DNA of 56,300 bases. It comes from Candidatus Pelagibacter communis (GTDB lineage Bacteria > Pseudomonadota > Alphaproteobacteria > Pelagibacterales > Pelagibacteraceae). The translations under genes and the position numbers were made by a program. The stretch spans positions 1-56,300 of the forward strand of contig CVSM01000030.1 of NCBI GenBank assembly GCA_001180065.1. Reading direction: 5' to 3'. Under the pieces are notes generated by a model that did not search any database, was not told where the DNA came from, and worked only from the letters and a program-made list of their open reading frames with translations. Position 1 is the first letter of the stretch, and each line of letters begins with the position of its first letter. Positions 585-46,840 of this stretch are shown piece after piece.

Positions 585-1052
585 TTAAAGGTTACTTACA
601 CTTTTTAAATAAGAATTCAAAGTTTTTTTTGATAGATTTTCCTTATATTTTTCAAAATATTCAATTAAATAATCAGTTTTTTCAAAATTTTCTAAAAATA
701 TTGAAAATTTTTTTTCTTTTTCATTATTATCAAAATCATCCCAAAAATGAATTTCAGAAACTAAAGAGTGAAAAAGATTAATATAATCTTTCATCTTTTT
801 ATTAATAGATTGATCACCATATCCAATTTCACGAATACTTAACTCTAACTGTCTAAAATTAAAATCATATATTTTTTGTAAAATTTCTGTATTGTCTTTA
901 TTTTTAAAAACTTTTAAGAAAAAAGCAAAATGTATCAAAAATAAAAGTAATCTATCAGAAAATGTATCCTGTTTATTAAGGCCTTTATATAGAAATTTAT
1001 TAGTAGTTAATTTGATTAAATTATTATAAAGATTTATATATAATTTATTCAT
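585..1052 (-). CDS. Ubiquinol-cytochrome c chaperone family protein (CBP3-like)
   Basis: A 155-residue protein resembling the CBP3 / ubiquinol-cytochrome c chaperone family, which helps assemble cytochrome b of respiratory complex III. The core similarity is a helical stretch at about residues 29-95, with [14 protein letters not shown] near the start and [19 protein letters not shown] in the middle. The latter matches the family's conserved LRExGxGDxxVxKKxK pattern. No signal peptide or membrane helix is evident. The position next to a BamE-type gene and upstream of plsX matches alphaproteobacterial gene order. Its start codon overlaps that of the divergent bamE-like gene by 2 nt. Family assignment is by recognition; the biochemical role is inferred. 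Confidence 0.8.
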
Positions 1053-1515
1053 GAAAAAAATTTTAATTTTTGTTGTATTTTTTTTAATTTTAAATTGTTC
1101 ATTTGAAAAAGTTATACAAAATCATGGTGTACATAATCTAGAAAAAAAACAAGCAAAACTAAAGATAAATCAATCAAATAAAAATGATATTTTTAATATT
1201 ATAGGTCCTCCTTCAACAAAAAGCTCTTTTGACAACGATATCTATATATATATTGAAAAAAAAACAAGTAGCTCAAAATTAACTAAATTAGGTAAAAAAA
1301 AACTTATCAGAAATAATGTTTTAGTTCTAGAGGTAGATAACAAAGGTTTGCTGTTAAGTAAGCAGTTTTATAATATGGATGATATGAAAAAAATACAATT
1401 TGATGAGTCAATTACGGAAATGAATCAAACAAGAAAATCATTTATTTATAATTTTCTTTATTCTGTAAGACAAAAAATTGATGACCCTTTAGGAAAAAAA
1501 AGGATCAAAAACTAA
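1051..1515 (+). CDS. bamE: Outer-membrane assembly lipoprotein, BamE/SmpA family
   Basis: A 154-residue predicted lipoprotein. A hydrophobic signal (residues 1-15) ends in LILNCS, so Cys16 would be lipidated. The following domain has the SmpA/BamE pattern of a short helical pair (about residues 39-52, [18 protein letters not shown]) followed by beta strands. In the BAM complex BamE stabilises BamD-BamA during outer-membrane protein insertion. It is the only plus-strand gene in the first 11 kb. It starts inside the start codon of the chaperone gene and overlaps the hppA stop codon by 4 nt at its end. A TATAAT sequence at 1039-1044 sits 6 nt before the ATG. Confidence 0.82.
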
Positions 1516-11020: not shown

Positions 11021-11113
11021 TTATAATATATTGTTTTCTTTAAAATTATTTAATATCCTTTTTATGATTTATTTGTATATTACATTTGTCGCATTATTTA
11101 AATAAATTTAAAC
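11021..11113. other. Divergent intergenic spacer, largest in the window
   Basis: This 93-nt AT-rich spacer separates the divergent oxygenase and hemB genes and must hold both promoters. A 12-bp perfect palindrome, TTATTTAAATAA, lies at 11094-11105, 8 nt before the hemB ATG. TTGTAT at 11072-11077 could be a hemB -35. I see no convincing pair of hexamers on either strand and no hairpin of note, so both promoters remain unassigned. Confidence 0.3.
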
Positions 11114-15288: not shown

Positions 15289-15872
15289 TTAATAAATCTA
15301 CTCCCGGGAGTGGTAATTGGTAATAATTTAAGATCGCTAGGTAAGTTAGTTCTTTTGTAACTAGGAACCTCAATTTTTAACTGAGAAATGATCTTTCTTT
15401 TTATTTTAAGATCTTTTTTGTTAGATCTATTAATTATTGATGCAAAACCTAATAGTTTTGCATTATTTTTTTTTATTAATTTTACACATTCCATACTTGA
15501 TTTTCCAGTAGTAATAACGTCCTCAACAATTAAGACTCTTGATCCCTTTTTAATTTTAAAACCCCTTCTTAAATTAAACTTTCCTGAAACTCTCTCACAA
15601 AAAATTGTTTCTTTTTTTAGAATTCTTCCAATTTCATAACCTATTATAATACCACCTATTGCTGGAGCTAAAATTAAATCAATTTTTTTAAAGTTCTTTT
15701 TAATCTTATTTGCTAGTGATTTACATATTTTTTCAGCTAAATGAGGATAACTCATTAATTTAGCACATTGAATGTATTTTGGCGAGTGTAGTCCTGATGA
15801 TAAAATAAAATGACCCTCTAATAATGCATTAGTCTTTCTTAAAATATCTAAGGATTTTTTGTGTGAAAGCAT
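15285..15872 (-). CDS. pyrE: Orotate phosphoribosyltransferase
   Basis: Adds PRPP-derived ribose phosphate to orotate in pyrimidine synthesis. The 195 residues include the PRPP-binding motif VLIVEDVITTGKSS and the N-terminal GHFILSSGLHSPKYIQC typical of the short OPRTase branch. It starts 44 nt inside the 3' end of the (p)ppGpp synthase gene, a long same-strand overlap, and overlaps pdxJ by 4 nt. A later start would cut the conserved N terminus, so the overlap seems real. Confidence 0.95.
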   Translation of the reverse strand: MLSHKKSLDILRKTNALLEGHFILSSGLHSPKYIQCAKLMSYPHLAEKICKSLANKIKKNFKKIDLILAPAIGGIIIGYEIGRILKKETIFCERVSGKFNLRRGFKIKKGSRVLIVEDVITTGKSSMECVKLIKKNNAKLLGFASIINRSNKKDLKIKRKIISQLKIEVPSYKRTNLPSDLKLLPITTPGSRFIK

Positions 15873-17574
15873 TTCTTTTATCTTCGTGTCTGATTATCTT
15901 AAATTTTATACCTTTTTGTTTCAGCTCTGCAATAAAATTAGTAAAATTTTTAAGATCTCTTATAATTAATTGAAATTTGAAATTGATATAATTAGGGTTT
16001 TTTCCTGCCATCACAAGATTTGAAATATTTAGTTTATGCTCACCTATCAAAGAACTTACATTACCTAACTGACCTGGTTTATCAGGTAGGGAAATCCACA
16101 ATGTTGTATTATATTTCTTTATTTTACTCTCTTTTTTTTCACCTCTGTCGTGCCAGTATCTTCTTATTGCTGCTCTTGCTTTTCCAGTTTTAGTTATAGG
16201 TATCCAGTGTAAAGAAGGTGAATGATTTTTTGATGTAATTATTTTGACACTATCACCATTTCTTAAAATAGTTTGTAGCTCGCTTTTATTTCCATTTATT
16301 TCACATCCGATAGCAGTATCTCCAATTTTAGTATGAACCGCATAAGCAAAATCAATTGGAGTAGCATCTTTGGGTAATTTTATTACTGATCCTTTTGGAG
16401 TAAAACAAAAAACGTTTTCCTGAAACATTTGTAGTTTAGTATATTCATATGAATGTTCTGGATTCTCATTTTTCTCTATAATCTCAACTAAATCTTTCAA
16501 CCAGTCATATTCTTTCCATGTTAATGAATTAAATTTTTCTGAAGACTTATATTGCCAGTGAGATGCTATCCCTCTTTCAGCAAATTCATGCATATCCTTT
16601 GTTCTAATCTGGATTTCGATTGGTTTTTTGTTTGAACCAATCACGGCAGTATGTATAGATTTATAGCCATTTATCTTAGCTGAGGATATATAATCTTTAA
16701 ACTTTCCAGGTATGCAATTATATTCCTTGTGTATTACACCAAGTGTTTTATAGCAATCATCAATATTTGATAAGATTATTCTAAAACCAATAATATCAGT
16801 TATTTGCTCCAGAGATACTCTTTTCTTTTGAACTTTTCTCCAAATTGAGAAAGGCGTTTTTTCTCTTCCATAAATTTCAGATTTTATATTATTTTTTCCT
16901 AATAAATATTTAAATTCATTAGATAGTGTTTCAAAAATATCCTTTTTATCGAGTTTAATTTCATCGAGTCTTTTTTGAATTAATTTTCTAGCTTCGTTAT
17001 TAAGAATATCAAAAGATAGATCTTCAAGCTCATCTCTTATTCTATGCATTCCCATTCTATCAGCTAAAGGGGCATAAATTTCCATTGTCTCTTGTGCAAT
17101 TCTTTTTCTTTTATCCTCATTATTAATTGCTTTAATTGTTCTCATGTTATGTAATCGATCAGCTATTTTTACTAATAAAACTCTTATATCTTTTGATGTG
17201 GCTAAAATTAATTTTCTAAAATTTTCAGCTTTTGAATTAGTTGTAGCAGTGTTTTCAAAAACAGATATTTTAGTAACACCATCAACTAAATCAGCTACCT
17301 CATCTCCAAATTCTCCCTTAATTGTCTCGTAGGTAGCATAAGTATCTTCTATCGTATCATGCAACAATCCAGTTGTAATAGTTGCACTATCCAATTTTAA
17401 ATCTGTTAATATATTTGCAACTTCAATTGGATGAACAGAATAAGGGTCTCCTGAAGCTCTTTTTTGATTGCTATGAGCCTTAACTGCAAAGTTATAAGCT
17501 TTGTTTAGTTTTTCAGGATTAAAAAACTTATTGTAAATTTTTACTTTATTAATTAAATCTTCTGAATTCAACAT
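15829..17574 (-). CDS. spoT: Compact bifunctional (p)ppGpp synthetase/hydrolase (RelA/SpoT family)
   Basis: Controls the stringent-response alarmone. Domains in order: HD hydrolase (about 25-180, His72-Asp73 in LLHDTIEDT), synthetase (about 230-345, FKDYISSAKINGYKSIHT), TGS (about 388-447, VFCFTPKGSVIKLP) and a C-terminal ACT domain (about 490-565, WISLPDKPGQLGNVSSLIG). At 581 residues it is well below the usual 700 or more. TGS and ACT are separated by only about 40 residues, so the helical and zinc-finger/conserved-cysteine domains are missing. An extended -10 sequence lies just before its start. pyrE begins inside its last 44 bases. Confidence 0.95.
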   Translation of the reverse strand: MLNSEDLINKVKIYNKFFNPEKLNKAYNFAVKAHSNQKRASGDPYSVHPIEVANILTDLKLDSATITTGLLHDTIEDTYATYETIKGEFGDEVADLVDGVTKISVFENTATTNSKAENFRKLILATSKDIRVLLVKIADRLHNMRTIKAINNEDKRKRIAQETMEIYAPLADRMGMHRIRDELEDLSFDILNNEARKLIQKRLDEIKLDKKDIFETLSNEFKYLLGKNNIKSEIYGREKTPFSIWRKVQKKRVSLEQITDIIGFRIILSNIDDCYKTLGVIHKEYNCIPGKFKDYISSAKINGYKSIHTAVIGSNKKPIEIQIRTKDMHEFAERGIASHWQYKSSEKFNSLTWKEYDWLKDLVEIIEKNENPEHSYEYTKLQMFQENVFCFTPKGSVIKLPKDATPIDFAYAVHTKIGDTAIGCEINGNKSELQTILRNGDSVKIITSKNHSPSLHWIPITKTGKARAAIRRYWHDRGEKKESKIKKYNTTLWISLPDKPGQLGNVSSLIGEHKLNISNLVMAGKNPNYINFKFQLIIRDLKNFTNFIAELKQKGIKFKIIRHEDKRNAFTQKILRYFKKD

Positions 17575-17579
17575 AACTA

Positions 17580-17588
17580 ATTATACCA
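17580..17588 (-). promoter_or_regulatory. Extended -10 promoter candidate for spoT
   Basis: On the minus strand the sequence reads TGGTATAAT, a consensus TATAAT with the TGn extension. It ends 5 nt before the spoT ATG (17572-17574). No good -35 is visible, which extended -10 promoters tolerate. If used, transcription would start at about the first base of the coding region, giving a leaderless mRNA. Confidence 0.4.
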
Positions 17589-18542: not shown

Positions 18543-19423
18543 TAAATTAATTTTGCAGATTGCAAAGCTTTTTTGATAATATTTTTAGTTTCCTCAGATA
18601 CTTTAACCATCGGAAGTCTTACATCATCTTCACACAAATTTAGCAATTTAGCAGCATATTTTACTGGACTTGGATTACTTTCAACAAACATTGAGTGATG
18701 TAATGGTTGTAAAATTTTATTTAAATTTTCAGCTTCAGACTGAGATTTTTCATCTTTCATTAAAGAAAATTTTTGAAATTCAGCACAAAGCTTTGGTGCT
18801 ATATTTGCAGTTACGCTTATGGTACCTACCCCTCCTCTTCTATTGAAATCCAAAGCATTATCATCATTACCAGTTAGTTGGATAAAATCTTTCCCTAATT
18901 TTTCTAAAGTAAGATTTACTCTATTAAGGTCTCCTGTAGCATCTTTTACTCCAACAATATTTTTTAATTCATAAAGTCTTGCCATTGTGTCAACATTCAT
19001 ATCTATTACAGATCTACTCGGAATGTTGTATATAATTATAGGTATTCCACATTTATCATTAATTGACTTGTAGTGTTGGTAAAGACCTTCTTGAGTAGGT
19101 TTGTTATAATAGGGTGTTACTATCAAAGCTGCATTTGCACCCATTTTTTCTGCATGTGTAGTGAGTGAAATAGCCTCCTCAGTAGAATTTGATCCTGTGC
19201 CTGCAATAACTGGTAATTTACCCTTGCTTTCCTTAACACATAAATCTATTACCCGCTGATGTTCATCATGGTTTAAAGTTGGCGACTCACCTGTAGTACC
19301 GGCTGGTACAAGACCATTTGTTCCATTTTCAATATGAAAGTGAATTAACTTAATGTAAGAGACTTCATCAAGTTTTTTATCTTTAAATGGGGTGACTAAA
19401 GCAACATTTGAACCTTTAAACAT
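18542..19423 (-). CDS. dapA: 4-hydroxy-tetrahydrodipicolinate synthase
   Basis: Condenses pyruvate with aspartate semialdehyde, the first committed step to diaminopimelate and lysine, needed for peptidoglycan. The 293-residue barrel shows [17 protein letters not shown] at the N terminus, the pyruvate site [16 protein letters not shown], the tyrosine region [17 protein letters not shown], and the Schiff-base lysine in [12 protein letters not shown]. It is the first gene of the long minus operon ending with recO, and is divergent from the lytic transglycosylase gene across 42 nt. Confidence 0.97.
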
Positions 19424-19465
19424 AAATACTTATAACATAGATTATAGATTCATATAATAAAGATT
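19424..19465. promoter_or_regulatory. Divergent dapA/slt promoter region with back-to-back TATAAT boxes
   Basis: The 42-nt spacer carries TATAAT on the plus strand at 19453-19458, 7 nt before the transglycosylase ATG at 19466. It also carries TATAAT on the minus strand at 19441-19446, 17 nt before the dapA ATG. Neither has a good -35 hexamer, and both -35 regions would fall in or beside the opposite gene. The plus-strand box predicts a nearly leaderless slt mRNA. AT-rich DNA makes such hexamers common. Confidence 0.35.
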
Positions 19466-21676
19466 ATGCTTAAAAAATTATTATTTTTTATGGTTTTGTC
19501 CTTATTGTCAATTTTGACAATTAGTTACTCTTCAGCGCAAATTTTGCCCATTAAAAAACCTGAATTATCAACAGAGGAGACTCAAAAAAAATTACTCGTA
19601 GACGTTTTAAAACCTCTTCCAAAACCAATTAAAAAAAAAGAAATTGAGGAAAAAAAAGAAATAATTGTTACAAAAGTGAAAGAACAAAGTGGTCTTCTTT
19701 TACCTAAAAAAAAACCAATTATTGCTGGGTCAGTAGTTGTAAAGAATATCAAGGAGTCAAAATATTTTAGCAAAAAAGACTTTAAATTAGCAAAAAAGGC
19801 AATTTCTGAAATGAAACTAGCAAAATGGCCTAATGCAATTCAAACTGCTAAAAAAGCTAAGGATAGGTCTATTTATGACTTTATTCAATGGAGACACTTA
19901 TTAACAAAAGGAAATAAGGCTTCCTACTTCGATTATAAAAATTTTATTGATAGAAATGAAGATTATCCAAGAATTGGAAGAATAAAATACCTTTCTGAAC
20001 ATAAATTATCCACAGATACTGTATCACCAAAAAAAATCGTGCAATGGTATGGTGAAAGGGAACCTTTGAGTGGATTTGGAAAAATGATTCTAGGTGAAAG
20101 TTATATTTTTACTGGAAATAAAGAAAAAGGAATAAAACTAATTAAAAATGGATGGGTAAATGCAGAGTTAACAAAATCAGAATTAAGATTTTTTAGAAAA
20201 AAATATAAAAAATATTTGGTTGCGGAAGATTATATTAAGCGTGCAGATTATCTTGCTTGGAATAATAAATATTGGGATTTAAAAAGAATGTTAAGATATT
20301 TACCAAAAGACTATGAACTCTTGTATAACGCTAGACAATTATTAATGAGTAAATCATATGGCGTTGACAATGCTATATCAAAAGTCCCAGATAAATTTAA
20401 GAATGATGCTGGTCTAAATTACGACAGATTAAAATGGAGAAGAAAAAGAGGTAGAGTTGATAGTTCAGTTGAAATCTTATTAAAGATTAAGAATACAAAA
20501 GATTATCTTGTAAGACCTGAAAAATGGTGGATCGAGAGAGAAATTATTTCAAGATCTCTGATATATAAAAAAAAATATGAGTTAGCTTACAAAATTTCTA
20601 GTAATCATGGTATGATAGATGGACCTGAATTAGCTGCAGCTGAATGGATGAGTGGTTGGATTGCTTTAAGTTTTTTAAATGATCCTTTGCTAGCAAAAGA
20701 ACATTTTGAAAAATTTTATAATAATGTTGGATATCCTATTAGTATAGCCCGTGGTGCATATTGGCTTGGAAGAACCTATAAAGAATTAAATAATAATGAA
20801 TTGGCAAAAAAATGGTTTGAAGAAGCGTCAAATTATTTAACAACTTACTACGGACAGTTAGCCCATATGGAAATAAATCCAAATACAAATTTTGAGCTTA
20901 CAAAAGATAAGGAGGTGAATAAAGAATATAGAGATTATTTTCAAAAAAAAGAAATTGTTAAAATGATTTATTTATTAGATGAACTAGATGAAGATAAATA
21001 CGCTAAATATATGTTAAGACATCTGGCTAATGATAATGTTGAAAATGGAAGTGAGATTCTTGCTGCTGAACTTGCTACAGATATTGAAAGGTTTGATTTT
21101 GCTATACAAATTTCCAAAATCGCATCCTATGAAAAAAGATTTCATAATAAATTCAACTACCCAATTATAAGCACTCCTAATTATATCAACGGTAGAAAAA
21201 TTCCTGAGACTGCATTTATTCTATCGATAATTAGACAAGAAAGTGAATTTGACATAAGCGCTAATAGTCACGCTGGTGCAAAAGGTTTAATGCAATTAAT
21301 GCCTTACACAGCTAAACTAGTTGCTAAACAAGCAAATCTTCCTTACACTAAATCTAGATTAACAACTGATCCTGAATATAATATTAATCTAGGTTCACAT
21401 TATATTGCTGGATTGATATTAGAATATGATGGAGCATATCCATTTGCTATTGCAGCCTATAACGCAGGACCAAAAAGAGTAAGATATTGGAAAAAATTAA
21501 ATAAAGATCCTCAAAAAAAACAAATCAATTATGTCGATTGGATAGAATTAATTAAATTTAAGGAAACTAGAAATTATGTTCAAAGAGTTTTAGAAAATTA
21601 TAACGTTTATAGATATATTTTAGAGCAAAAACCAATACCTTTGAAAGACTTCTTTAAAGATAATCCTTTGTTTTAA
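19466..21676 (+). CDS. slt: Soluble lytic murein transglycosylase (Slt type)
   Basis: Periplasmic enzyme that cleaves peptidoglycan glycan strands, forming 1,6-anhydro ends. Of 736 residues, about 1-25 are a signal peptide (ILTISYSSAQ). Then comes a Lys/Pro-rich linker to about 75 with LPIKKP, LPKPIKKK and LLPKKKP repeats. A long helical superhelix domain follows, and the catalytic SLT domain begins at about 581. Glu592 in IRQESEFD is the expected catalytic acid; HAGAKGLMQLMP and AIAAYNAGP complete the motifs. It is divergent from dapA, whose product is made for the same wall. Only 4 nt separate its stop from tRNA-Ser. Confidence 0.93.
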   Translation: MLKKLLFFMVLSLLSILTISYSSAQILPIKKPELSTEETQKKLLVDVLKPLPKPIKKKEIEEKKEIIVTKVKEQSGLLLPKKKPIIAGSVVVKNIKESKYFSKKDFKLAKKAISEMKLAKWPNAIQTAKKAKDRSIYDFIQWRHLLTKGNKASYFDYKNFIDRNEDYPRIGRIKYLSEHKLSTDTVSPKKIVQWYGEREPLSGFGKMILGESYIFTGNKEKGIKLIKNGWVNAELTKSELRFFRKKYKKYLVAEDYIKRADYLAWNNKYWDLKRMLRYLPKDYELLYNARQLLMSKSYGVDNAISKVPDKFKNDAGLNYDRLKWRRKRGRVDSSVEILLKIKNTKDYLVRPEKWWIEREIISRSLIYKKKYELAYKISSNHGMIDGPELAAAEWMSGWIALSFLNDPLLAKEHFEKFYNNVGYPISIARGAYWLGRTYKELNNNELAKKWFEEASNYLTTYYGQLAHMEINPNTNFELTKDKEVNKEYRDYFQKKEIVKMIYLLDELDEDKYAKYMLRHLANDNVENGSEILAAELATDIERFDFAIQISKIASYEKRFHNKFNYPIISTPNYINGRKIPETAFILSIIRQESEFDISANSHAGAKGLMQLMPYTAKLVAKQANLPYTKSRLTTDPEYNINLGSHYIAGLILEYDGAYPFAIAAYNAGPKRVRYWKKLNKDPQKKQINYVDWIELIKFKETRNYVQRVLENYNVYRYILEQKPIPLKDFFKDNPLF

Positions 21677-27732: not shown

Positions 27733-27772
27733 TAAATTAGTAATTAATTTTTTATTCTTTATAAACTAAAGA

Positions 27773-28504
27773 GTGAGAAATTTATTTTTTTTATCTTTAA
27801 TTCTACTTTTAACCTCTTGTGGTAAAAGTGAGCTTAATTGGTTAATTTTATCTCCTAATAATATAGAAGGATTAACCAATCTAAAATTTTTATTGAGTGG
27901 TCTGACCACAACTATTTTTATTTCAATAGTTTCAATAATTATTTCTATATTTTTAGGACTTGTTGTTGCAATACCCTCTTTGGCTAAGAATAAATTTTTA
28001 ACTTATTTAAATATAGGCTATGTTGAAATAGTAAGAGCAATACCGTTGTTGGTTCTTATTCTATGGATTTATTATGGTCTCCCAATCATGACAGGTATAA
28101 GTTTTAGTCCATTTGTTTCTGGTATCATAGCACTATCAATAAGTGAAAGTGCTTTTCAAGCTGAAATTTTCAGAGCAGGAATTAATTCAATAAAAAAATC
28201 ACAATGGGAAGCAGGAAGTTCTTTAGGACTCGGTTTTTTTAGAAAATTAAGATTAGTTATTTTACCTCAAGCAATAAAGAATATTTTACCTGCTATTGGT
28301 AACCAATTTGTTTATGTGCTTAAAATGTCATCTCTTGTGTCAATAATCGGTATTGGTGATTTAACAAGAAAAGCAAACGAATTAGTCGTCACAACTTATC
28401 GGCCACTGGAAATTTATACATTTCTAATTCTAGAATATTTAATCTTAATATTGATTGTTTCTTATCTTGTTAGAAAATTAGAAAAAAAATTACAAAAAGA
28501 TTAA
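27773..28504 (+). CDS. Amino-acid ABC transporter permease with a lipoprotein-like N terminus
   Basis: A 243-residue His/Glu/Gln/Arg-type inner-membrane permease. Several membrane helices are evident, and the ATPase-coupling loop reads EAGSSLGLGFFRKLRLVILPQA, close to the EAAxxLG consensus. The start is a GTG at 27773; the next methionine is far inside the domain. The extreme N terminus (LSLILLLTSCGKSE) looks like a signal with a lipobox cysteine at residue 16, odd for a permease and possibly just an extra helix. It pairs with the binding protein upstream. It overlaps the convergent nuclease gene by 4 nt. Confidence 0.88.
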   Translation: MRNLFFLSLILLLTSCGKSELNWLILSPNNIEGLTNLKFLLSGLTTTIFISIVSIIISIFLGLVVAIPSLAKNKFLTYLNIGYVEIVRAIPLLVLILWIYYGLPIMTGISFSPFVSGIIALSISESAFQAEIFRAGINSIKKSQWEAGSSLGLGFFRKLRLVILPQAIKNILPAIGNQFVYVLKMSSLVSIIGIGDLTRKANELVVTTYRPLEIYTFLILEYLILILIVSYLVRKLEKKLQKD

Positions 28505-35101: not shown

Positions 35102-35151
35102 ATGCTATTTAAATATGAGGCAAAGTATCACTTAAGTTTAAAATATACAAT
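35102..35151. promoter_or_regulatory. Divergent gatC/ruvX spacer with a candidate ruvX -10 box
   Basis: This 50-nt spacer must hold both start regions. TAAAAT (35139-35144) lies 7 nt before the ruvX ATG at 35152 and could give a leaderless mRNA. An 8-bp palindrome ACTTAAGT sits at 35129-35136. No credible gatC promoter hexamers stand out. Confidence 0.25.
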
Positions 35152-35607
35152 ATGATCACTTTAGAGGAATTTAAAAAAAAACACTTAGATAAGTGTAGAT
35201 TGATAGGTTTAGACCTGGGTTCTAAAAGAATTGGTGTGTCAATCTGTGATGATAAACAATTAATTGCTACCCCATTAAAAACAATAAATAGAAATTCACT
35301 AAAAAACCTTGTTGAAGAACTCAGATTAATCATTGATGAAAATAATATAAAAGGAATCATTGTTGGAAATCCTTTAAATATGGATGGATCTTCAGGTAGG
35401 TCAGCTCAATCAGTAAAAGATACGACTGAAAATATTGAAAAAAACTTAGATATTCCAATTTGTCTCTGGGATGAGAGACTCTCAACTGTTGGTGCTTTCA
35501 ATCTATCTAGCGAATTAGATATTAATGTGAGTAAAAGAGAAAAAAAGATAGATGAAAACGCTGCTGCTTTTATATTACAAGGAGCTTTAGATTTTTTAAA
35601 TAATTAA
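35152..35607 (+). CDS. ruvX: Putative pre-16S rRNA nuclease / Holliday junction resolvase-like RuvX (YqgF)
   Basis: A 151-residue RNase H-fold protein of the YqgF family, implicated in 16S rRNA 5'-end maturation. Seen: LIGLDLGSKRIGVSICDD at the N terminus with the first acidic residue, GIIVGNPLNMDGSSGRSAQS in the centre, and LWDERLSTVGAF followed by KKIDENAAAFILQ with the C-terminal acidic residue. Length is normal. It lies 42 nt before pyrB; pairing with pyrBC and gatCAB is a common alphaproteobacterial context. Confidence 0.95.
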   Translation: MITLEEFKKKHLDKCRLIGLDLGSKRIGVSICDDKQLIATPLKTINRNSLKNLVEELRLIIDENNIKGIIVGNPLNMDGSSGRSAQSVKDTTENIEKNLDIPICLWDERLSTVGAFNLSSELDINVSKREKKIDENAAAFILQGALDFLNN

Positions 35608-43926: not shown

Positions 43927-43960
43927 TTAAATGTTTTACTTATTAAAATATTTAATACAA

Positions 43961-46150: not shown

Positions 46151-46210
46151 AAATTTACCTATTATTCTGACGGATCTTTTAATACATAATAAAAAGAATA
46201 CAATTTATAA
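46151..46210. promoter_or_regulatory. Divergent mgtE/lipB spacer with a candidate lipB -10 box
   Basis: The 60-nt spacer holds TACAAT at 46199-46204, 6 nt before the lipB ATG at 46211, which would give an almost leaderless mRNA. A clear -35 is not seen. For mgtE I cannot assign a promoter. Confidence 0.25.
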
Positions 46211-46840
46211 ATGAATATAGAAATTAAAAAGTCACAAAAACCAGTAAAATACGAGGATGCTTTATCATTCATGGAGAAACGTCTCATTGAAATAGATCAA
46301 AATAAATCCAATGATTTAATTTGGATTTTAGAACACAATGAAATTTTTACCGCAGGAAAAGCATACAAAGAGGATGAAATTATTGATAAATCTATAACAA
46401 TTTTTAAGACAAATAGAGGAGGAAAAATAACGTATCATGGGCCAGGACAGTTGATCTGTTATTTTGTTGTAGATTTAAAAAAAAGAAAAAAAGATATAAG
46501 AAAATTTATATCTATTATCGAAAAAACGATTATTGAAACTCTTAAATATTATCAAATTAATACTTTTCCAGATAAAGATAATATTGGAGTATGGTATGAT
46601 GATAAAACACAAATCAAAAAAATTGCTGCAATAGGAGTTAGAGTGAGTAAATGGATTGCTTATCATGGCTTCTCAATAAACATAAATAATGATTTAGAAA
46701 AATATAGCGCAATAATACCCTGCGGAATTTCAGATAAAGGAGTTACAAATTTAAAAAATATAAAAGATCAAAATTATGATGGTATAAAAGATAAGTTGGT
46801 TGAAAATTTTATTTCAAACCTTAAAAGTTTAAACGTTTAG
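46211..46840 (+). CDS. lipB: Octanoyl-[acyl-carrier-protein]:protein N-octanoyltransferase LipB
   Basis: Transfers octanoyl from ACP to lipoyl domains, the first lipoate step for pyruvate and 2-oxoglutarate dehydrogenases and the glycine cleavage system. The 209 residues include [38 protein letters not shown], and the catalytic cysteine in [14 protein letters not shown]. Length is normal. Its last 20 bases overlap the 3' end of the convergent pseudouridine synthase gene. A 10-bp palindrome TAAACGTTTA (46830-46839) lies in this overlap. Confidence 0.96.

Follow-up and report, generated by a model that had tools for sequence, protein, structure and literature searches.

Candidate -10 boxes directly ahead of start codons suggest a restricted class of leaderless messages in SAR11

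Leaderless genes in other bacteria

Genes with a TA-led signal and presumed leaderless transcripts have been described across bacteria, including alphaproteobacteria, by Zheng et al. (2011), who read a TAtaaT-like signal ~10-12 bp before the start codon as leaderless and found that in some low-GC genomes a TG stands ahead of the TA-led box (PMC3160421). In Caulobacter crescentus 375 leaderless mRNAs, or 9.6% of CDSs, are known (PMC4117421, where 171 are cited for Sinorhizobium meliloti), and 119 have been reported from Zymomonas mobilis (PMC7566282). In Deinococcus-Thermus, a -10 motif adjoining the ORF has been put forward as a mode of expression via leaderless mRNA (PMC12340547). The main text of Zheng et al. 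contains no occurrence of Pelagibacter, the single use of the word leaderless in a paper on structured RNAs of Pelagibacter is in the title of a reference (PMC2704228), and searches of the open-licence literature listed neither a start-site map nor a leaderless claim for SAR11. In alphaproteobacteria other than SAR11, leaderless mRNA is established.

The SAR11 boxes take the same position as those of the TA-led genes (PMC3160421), with the difference that in SAR11 the class goes with little space upstream of the gene. As in Caulobacter and Zymomonas, likewise Alphaproteobacteria, a minority of messages would start at the AUG, although the leaderless mRNAs of those two organisms were mapped by experiment whereas the SAR11 class is drawn from sequence alone and belongs to a streamlined genome. 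A -10 motif next to the ORF is called common in the title of the Deinococcus-Thermus study, while in SAR11 it appears restricted.

The reading we favour, with a probability of roughly 60%, is that the boxes at spoT, dapA, lipB and bamE function as genuine -10 elements for the housekeeping sigma factor and give rise, in a restricted class of SAR11 genes, to mRNAs that are leaderless or whose leader is too short. RNA polymerase would start ~7 bp downstream of the -10 element, and with the element so near the start codon transcription would begin at the first base of the AUG itself or only a few nt away. The leader of such an mRNA would be absent, or not long enough to hold a Shine-Dalgarno (SD) sequence, and translation would follow the leaderless route, from a 5'-terminal AUG. 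The class would occur where the upstream gap is short, while genes with more room would more often carry an SD-bearing leader.

Candidate boxes in the window and their conservation

The window, i.e. the whole stretch of DNA that was analysed, has 56,300 bases at 28.4% GC and is one contig of an 834,822-base assembly of 150 contigs. It was picked by an earlier reader for its box pattern, and counts made within it are to be read with that caution. Gene starts are our own uncurated ORF calls, and spacers are given as the nt between the last T of a box and the ATG. Pfam agrees with the gene names used here, the BamE match lying under the Pfam cut-off (20.1 vs 23.2 bits). The first-pass annotation had listed five boxes ending 5-7 nt ahead of an ATG, and all five are present at the coordinates it gave, with spacers of 5 nt at spoT, 7 nt at slt, 6 nt at bamE and lipB and 7 nt at ruvX.

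Among the 21 unit starts of the window (12 divergent and 9 co-directional, the latter with 15 nt or more of upstream gap), nine show a hexamer at 5-7 nt that agrees with TATAAT in five or all six letters, as compared to a mean of 2.24 and a maximum of 4 in 17 control windows of the same width further upstream. TATAAT also ranks first among the 20 A3T3 hexamers at this position. The earlier estimate that the boxes exceed chance thus holds, its five boxes being a subset of the nine. Boxes that had been missed include TATAAG at 5 nt from dapA, TAAAAT at 7 nt from the minus-strand gene starting at 1,052, TATAAA ahead of the GTG at 27,773, and TTTAAT at the start at 43,931. The second of these (1,060-1,065, minus strand; gene 585-1,052) is a weak candidate, examined in this window only. 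The third (27,760-27,765, plus strand) is likewise weak. It is spaced 7 nt from the start codon of an ABC permease gene (27,773-28,504, named from Pfam) and found in 0.88 of 8 genomes; since that start is a GTG, leaderless translation is less probable. A different kind of element was observed in the region 11,021-11,113 upstream of hemB (ALAD; start 11,114, plus strand), with an Asp/Asn hydroxylase-like gene on its other side (10,430, minus strand): TGTCGCA, which 11 of 13 genomes retain at ~20-35 nt from the hemB start, resembles a regulator site.

Conservation was followed in the best 80 of 403 relatives, all of them Pelagibacteraceae or Pelagibacterales and hence SAR11, and for ruvX, lipB and bamE, which had matches in 57, 55 and 50 genomes, in the best 30 loci each; as only the best matches were taken, these sets lean to close relatives. 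Identical upstream sequences were merged, so that counts refer to distinct sequences. A wider set held 14 genomes, 10 of the window's genus and 4 from other genera, and here the box was sought at 4-8 nt. With a start picker that favours ATG, the start codon was ATG in 80/80 spoT, 74/74 dapA and 73/74 slt loci, and in 30/30 each for ruvX, lipB and bamE. SD tetramers at -16 to -4 were absent from every distinct upstream sequence of spoT (0/62), slt, bamE, lipB, ruvX, dapA and hemB.

The strongest case among the boxes of the window is spoT. Its extended -10 box TGGTATAAT (17,580-17,588, minus strand), which reads TGG-TATAAT, ends 5 nt before the ATG (17,574) of spoT/rel (15,829-17,574, minus strand; HD, RelA_SpoT, TGS and ACT domains) and sits inside the 19-nt gap that follows folK. 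All 80 loci yielded a start, and each of the 62 distinct upstream sequences has TGn directly before a hexamer with at least five of six matches at 5-7 nt (39 TATAAT, 21 TATAGT and 2 TATAAA). Pairwise identity is 0.91 in the box as compared to 0.38 in the final 4 nt ahead of the ATG. In the wider set the box is kept in 13 of 14 genomes, TGn in all 13, and three of these 13 are among the four that belong to other genera. Given its place in the folK-spoT gap, the box would be an internal promoter, by which the alarmone enzyme would receive a leaderless message of its own. The second case, outside the window, is a gene with semialdehyde dehydrogenase domains in Pfam, which we take from inspection of its sequence to be argC: the box is present in eight of nine genomes and TGn in seven.

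The dapA candidate is also of the extended type (TGTTATAAG, 19,429-19,437, minus strand, 5 nt before the ATG at 19,423). TGn and box at 5 nt recur in 42/42 distinct upstream sequences, and as the spacer is just as conserved (0.98), conservation alone does not pick out the box. In the wider set it is confined to the genus, with 10/10 genomes there and 0/4 of the other genera (10/14). The extended-box members spoT, argC and dapA are few, and the TGn prefix is missing at slt (0/32), ruvX (0/22) and lipB (0/19) and nearly so at bamE (1/30) in the upstream sequences of the relatives. At lipB, TACAAT (46,199-46,204, plus strand, 6 nt before the ATG at 46,211) has at least five matches in 17 of 19 distinct upstream sequences, with a spacer conserved about as well as the box (0.88), and is found in 7/9 genomes of the wider set.

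At bamE, TATAAT (1,039-1,044, plus strand, 6 nt before the ATG at 1,051) is kept with at least five matches in 20 of 30 relatives (best 30 of 50) and in 5/9 genomes of the wider set. Its bases are at the same time coding sequence of the divergent opposite-strand gene (585-1,052), which is ubiquinol-cytochrome c chaperone-like. The start codons of the two genes overlap (CATG, 1,050-1,053); any promoter of either gene must therefore lie within the coding sequence of the other. A gap of -2 at this pair is also called, from one or both sides, in G010, G015, G019, G034 and G046.

At ruvX, TAAAAT (35,139-35,144, plus strand, 7 nt before the ATG at 35,152) has at least five matches in 16 of 22 distinct sequences of close relatives, with a spacer conserved at 0.96, about as well as the box, and is found in 5/13 genomes of the wider set. 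The whole 50-bp gap between gatC and ruvX (35,102-35,151) is strongly conserved over 30 genomes, CACTTAAG being present in 25 of them, and this conservation exceeds what a promoter box would need. At slt, TATAAT (19,453-19,458, plus strand, 7 nt before the ATG at 19,466) is mainly TATACT or TATAGT in close relatives, with at least five matches in 21 of 32 distinct upstream sequences, and occurs in just 4/14 genomes of the wider set. Gene by gene, the proposal that these hexamers are -10 boxes therefore gains from the deep conservation at spoT and argC and loses at slt and ruvX. By their counts in the wider set, lipB and dapA also belong with the conserved boxes, and bamE with the weakly conserved ones.

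Limited conservation of the latter kind is what would be seen if AT-rich composition close to start codons, as in unstructured initiation regions, merely produced chance look-alikes of TATAAT and no promoters. Such an origin agrees poorly with the spoT box, which is retained while its spacer drifts.

Positional excess and Shine-Dalgarno rarity at short-gap starts

The genome sample took in ~40% each of three SAR11 genomes, of which two share the genus of the window and the third belongs to a different one (1,483 starts). Blocks of eleven more genomes, the window among them, brought the total to 2,521 starts. Genes near a block end or lacking an upstream neighbour were left out, as were two stretches of G003 that overlap the 120-kb block. 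Starts were classed as short-gap when divergent with up to 60 nt, or co-directional with 15-60 nt, of upstream gap, and dinucleotide shuffles of the last 36 nt (n=300) served as control. Strict TATANT at 5-8 nt was found at 34 of 370 short-gap starts, while the shuffles gave a mean of 14.2 and a maximum of 23, with 0/300 reaching 34. These 34 matches are spread over 29 families, and with one member per protein family the count is 23.7/290 vs 8.8 in control windows. For divergent gaps of 18-60 nt, the three genomes taken singly gave 7/45 vs 1.4, 7/55 vs 3.0 and 5/48 vs 1.4 in the control.

Long-gap starts showed no strict TATANT excess (7/361 vs 8.1 in shuffles, three genomes), and neither did operon-internal starts (8/752 vs 10.3 in shuffles and 8.1 in control windows). 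The first-pass annotation had spoken of widespread leaderless mRNAs and proposed a shuffle-controlled scan of gene starts: the peak at 5-8 nt did emerge at short-gap starts, but the excess there is only ~20 of 370 and does not extend to long-gap or internal starts, so that the word widespread finds only partial support. If TATANT catches a quarter to a third of the real boxes, the class would by rough inference make up ~8-10% of unit starts and a few percent of genes.

The lack of a strict excess at internal genes, together with the excess over dinucleotide shuffles at short-gap starts, argues against chance look-alikes as the source of the pattern. So does the extended box: among 1,728 starts, which include orthologues, TGn-prefixed TATAAT occurs 15 times at 4-8 nt, and the runner-up among the 20 A3T3 hexamers six times. 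A loose box with one mismatch fits look-alikes better, as it is enriched before operon-internal genes too (79/752 at 5-8 nt; elsewhere a mean of 49.6 and a maximum of 65). All in all, we consider an origin by composition alone distinctly improbable. The same rise at internal starts shows that the loose box over-counts, and it was dropped as a counting tool; in divergent gaps of up to 60 nt it gave 49/226, other windows having a mean of 32.3 and a largest value of 51.

Several other counts were of little use. At such a base composition, simply plotting TATAAT by position in a single genome gave too much noise, and TANNNT alone was too weak, with ratios of 1.13 at divergent, 1.31 at co-directional and 1.23 at internal starts (three genomes). 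Counting families with a box in at least 75% of genomes gave 2/24 at 4-8 nt for divergent starts vs 1-2 in other windows, with permuted hexamers reaching up to 3, and so did not discriminate there; it did so only for co-directional gaps of at least 15 nt, with 3/18 vs 0 in other windows, though the overlapping hexamer TTATAA gave 4. Across 28 SAR11 genomes, each of at least 94% completeness, the strict extended form TGNTATAAT ahead of any ATG had 287 occurrences with a spacer of 5-8 nt and 244 with one of 15-18 nt, while reversed-pattern controls summed to 138 and 126. The displaced count of 244 is inflated by true boxes that are followed by a second ATG; the excess is nonetheless small, and the class of extended boxes must therefore be small as well.

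SD sequences, counted as strict tetramers at 3-12 nt before the start in the three genomes, are rare where divergent gaps are short: 3/148 starts at 18-60 nt, 8/77 at 61-120 nt and 26/123 above 120 nt (Fisher, 18-60 vs >120 nt, 3.9e-7). The direction is the same in every genome singly (p 0.024, 0.0006 and 0.011), and the ATG share of the 148 starts is 0.97. The split is weaker for co-directional genes, with 14/144 at 15-60 nt, 18/77 at 61-120 nt and 12/84 above (30/161 for all above 60 nt). No gene in the three-genome sample has both a box and an SD, which is partly forced since the two would take the same bases.

Motif learning gave diffuse AT motifs when all unit starts were pooled, and a split by gap length was needed; the -10 weights used in one analysis were preset rather than fitted. 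When learning began from -10 seeds, short-gap starts (n=451, 14 genomes) yielded TG-T-TATAA(T). Spacers of 5-11 nt took 57% of the spacer weight, and the score was 122.6 vs 57.0 +/- 6.9 in shuffles. For divergent gaps above 60 nt (n=291) the motif drifted to an AAGAG-like SD type near the start (105.4 vs 48.9 +/- 5.5). With the three genomes only, short divergent gaps scored 52.0 vs 42.0 +/- 4.4, which is not beyond all shuffles (maximum 53.1), and short co-directional gaps scored a moderate 65.7 vs 51.9 +/- 4.7; the 14-genome score thus leans partly on orthologues.

Spacers that range over 5-11 nt would also be in line with real -10 boxes whose transcripts start 2-9 nt upstream of the AUG, giving ultra-short leaders that lack an SD and are not strictly leaderless, and TANNNT is indeed raised at spacers of 9-15 in short divergent gaps too. 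The peak of the extended box at 5-8 nt (orthologues included in one count) speaks rather for starts at the AUG, as a polymerase starting ~7 bp past such a box would arrive at the first base of the ATG. We regard ultra-short leaders in place of strictly leaderless mRNAs as rather unlikely, and infer from the box positions that transcription probably starts at the AUG or next to it, with translation free of a leader.

Divergent gaps and their possible meaning

Start codons of divergent genes in the three SAR11 genomes are a median of 54 bp apart (179 pairs, after pairs were dropped if the smaller gene was below 90 aa). The comparison with E. coli K-12 used 21 divergent CDS pairs collected manually, with the omission of one pseudogene pair, one tRNA pair and one nested small gene; there the median was 189 bp and the smallest distance 92. 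A median of 54 bp would imply that about half of the SAR11 pairs have no room for two leader-bearing promoters. A preferred gap of 42-43 bp was considered and dropped, as the three-genome distribution is broad.

At the slt/dapA pair, whose start codons are 42 bp apart (43 bp from A to A), the dapA -10 candidate occupies the -35 position of slt: TTATAA (19,430-19,435, plus strand), 17 bp upstream of the slt -10 candidate, shares bases with the dapA -10 candidate of the opposite strand. The arrangement TTATA(A/C)-17-TATANT at 6-8 nt was found in 63 of the 74 loci with a slt start. In E. coli, bidirectional promoters have common start-to-start distances of 18, 10 or 23 bp, and the optimum start lies 7 bp after the -10 (PMC12825309). 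SAR11 divergent pairs resemble these in that divergent starts would share promoter DNA, but at 43 bp, and with one -10 at the position of the other's -35, slt/dapA is not of their symmetric-core type.

Only one pair, outside the window, comes near the E. coli distances, at 17 bp. It is a divergent pair with BolA and DnaJ domains (Pfam) and a 16-bp gap (L089:3716-3732, equal to G003:C1:184715-184731) that takes in 15 of the 16 bases of the palindromic TGATATAATTATATCA. This palindrome is a possible two-way leaderless promoter. Exact copies of TGATATAATTATATCA were found at one place among seven genomes (G003) and also before an ATG in G042, and copies with one mismatch in G003 (two), G019 and G034; with so few places, the 16-bp palindrome was ruled out as a general SAR11 element.

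Perhaps streamlining has squeezed divergent pairs until two promoters came to share one short interval, either with the -10 of one doubling as the -35 of the other, as may be the case in slt/dapA, or with a single palindromic -10 firing both ways, as the bolA/dnaJ-like pair could be read. Promoters packed in this way would leave both genes leaderless, and the length of the gap would then decide the route of translation initiation. We offer this only tentatively.

SAR11 is a very abundant group of ocean bacteria whose cells are difficult to manipulate. If the class of leaderless messages is real, start-codon annotation and promoter prediction in SAR11 would have to change. It would also account for the way in which divergent genes fit into gaps of 20-60 bp, and it would place spoT, a gene of the stringent response, under a route of translation that has no need of an SD.
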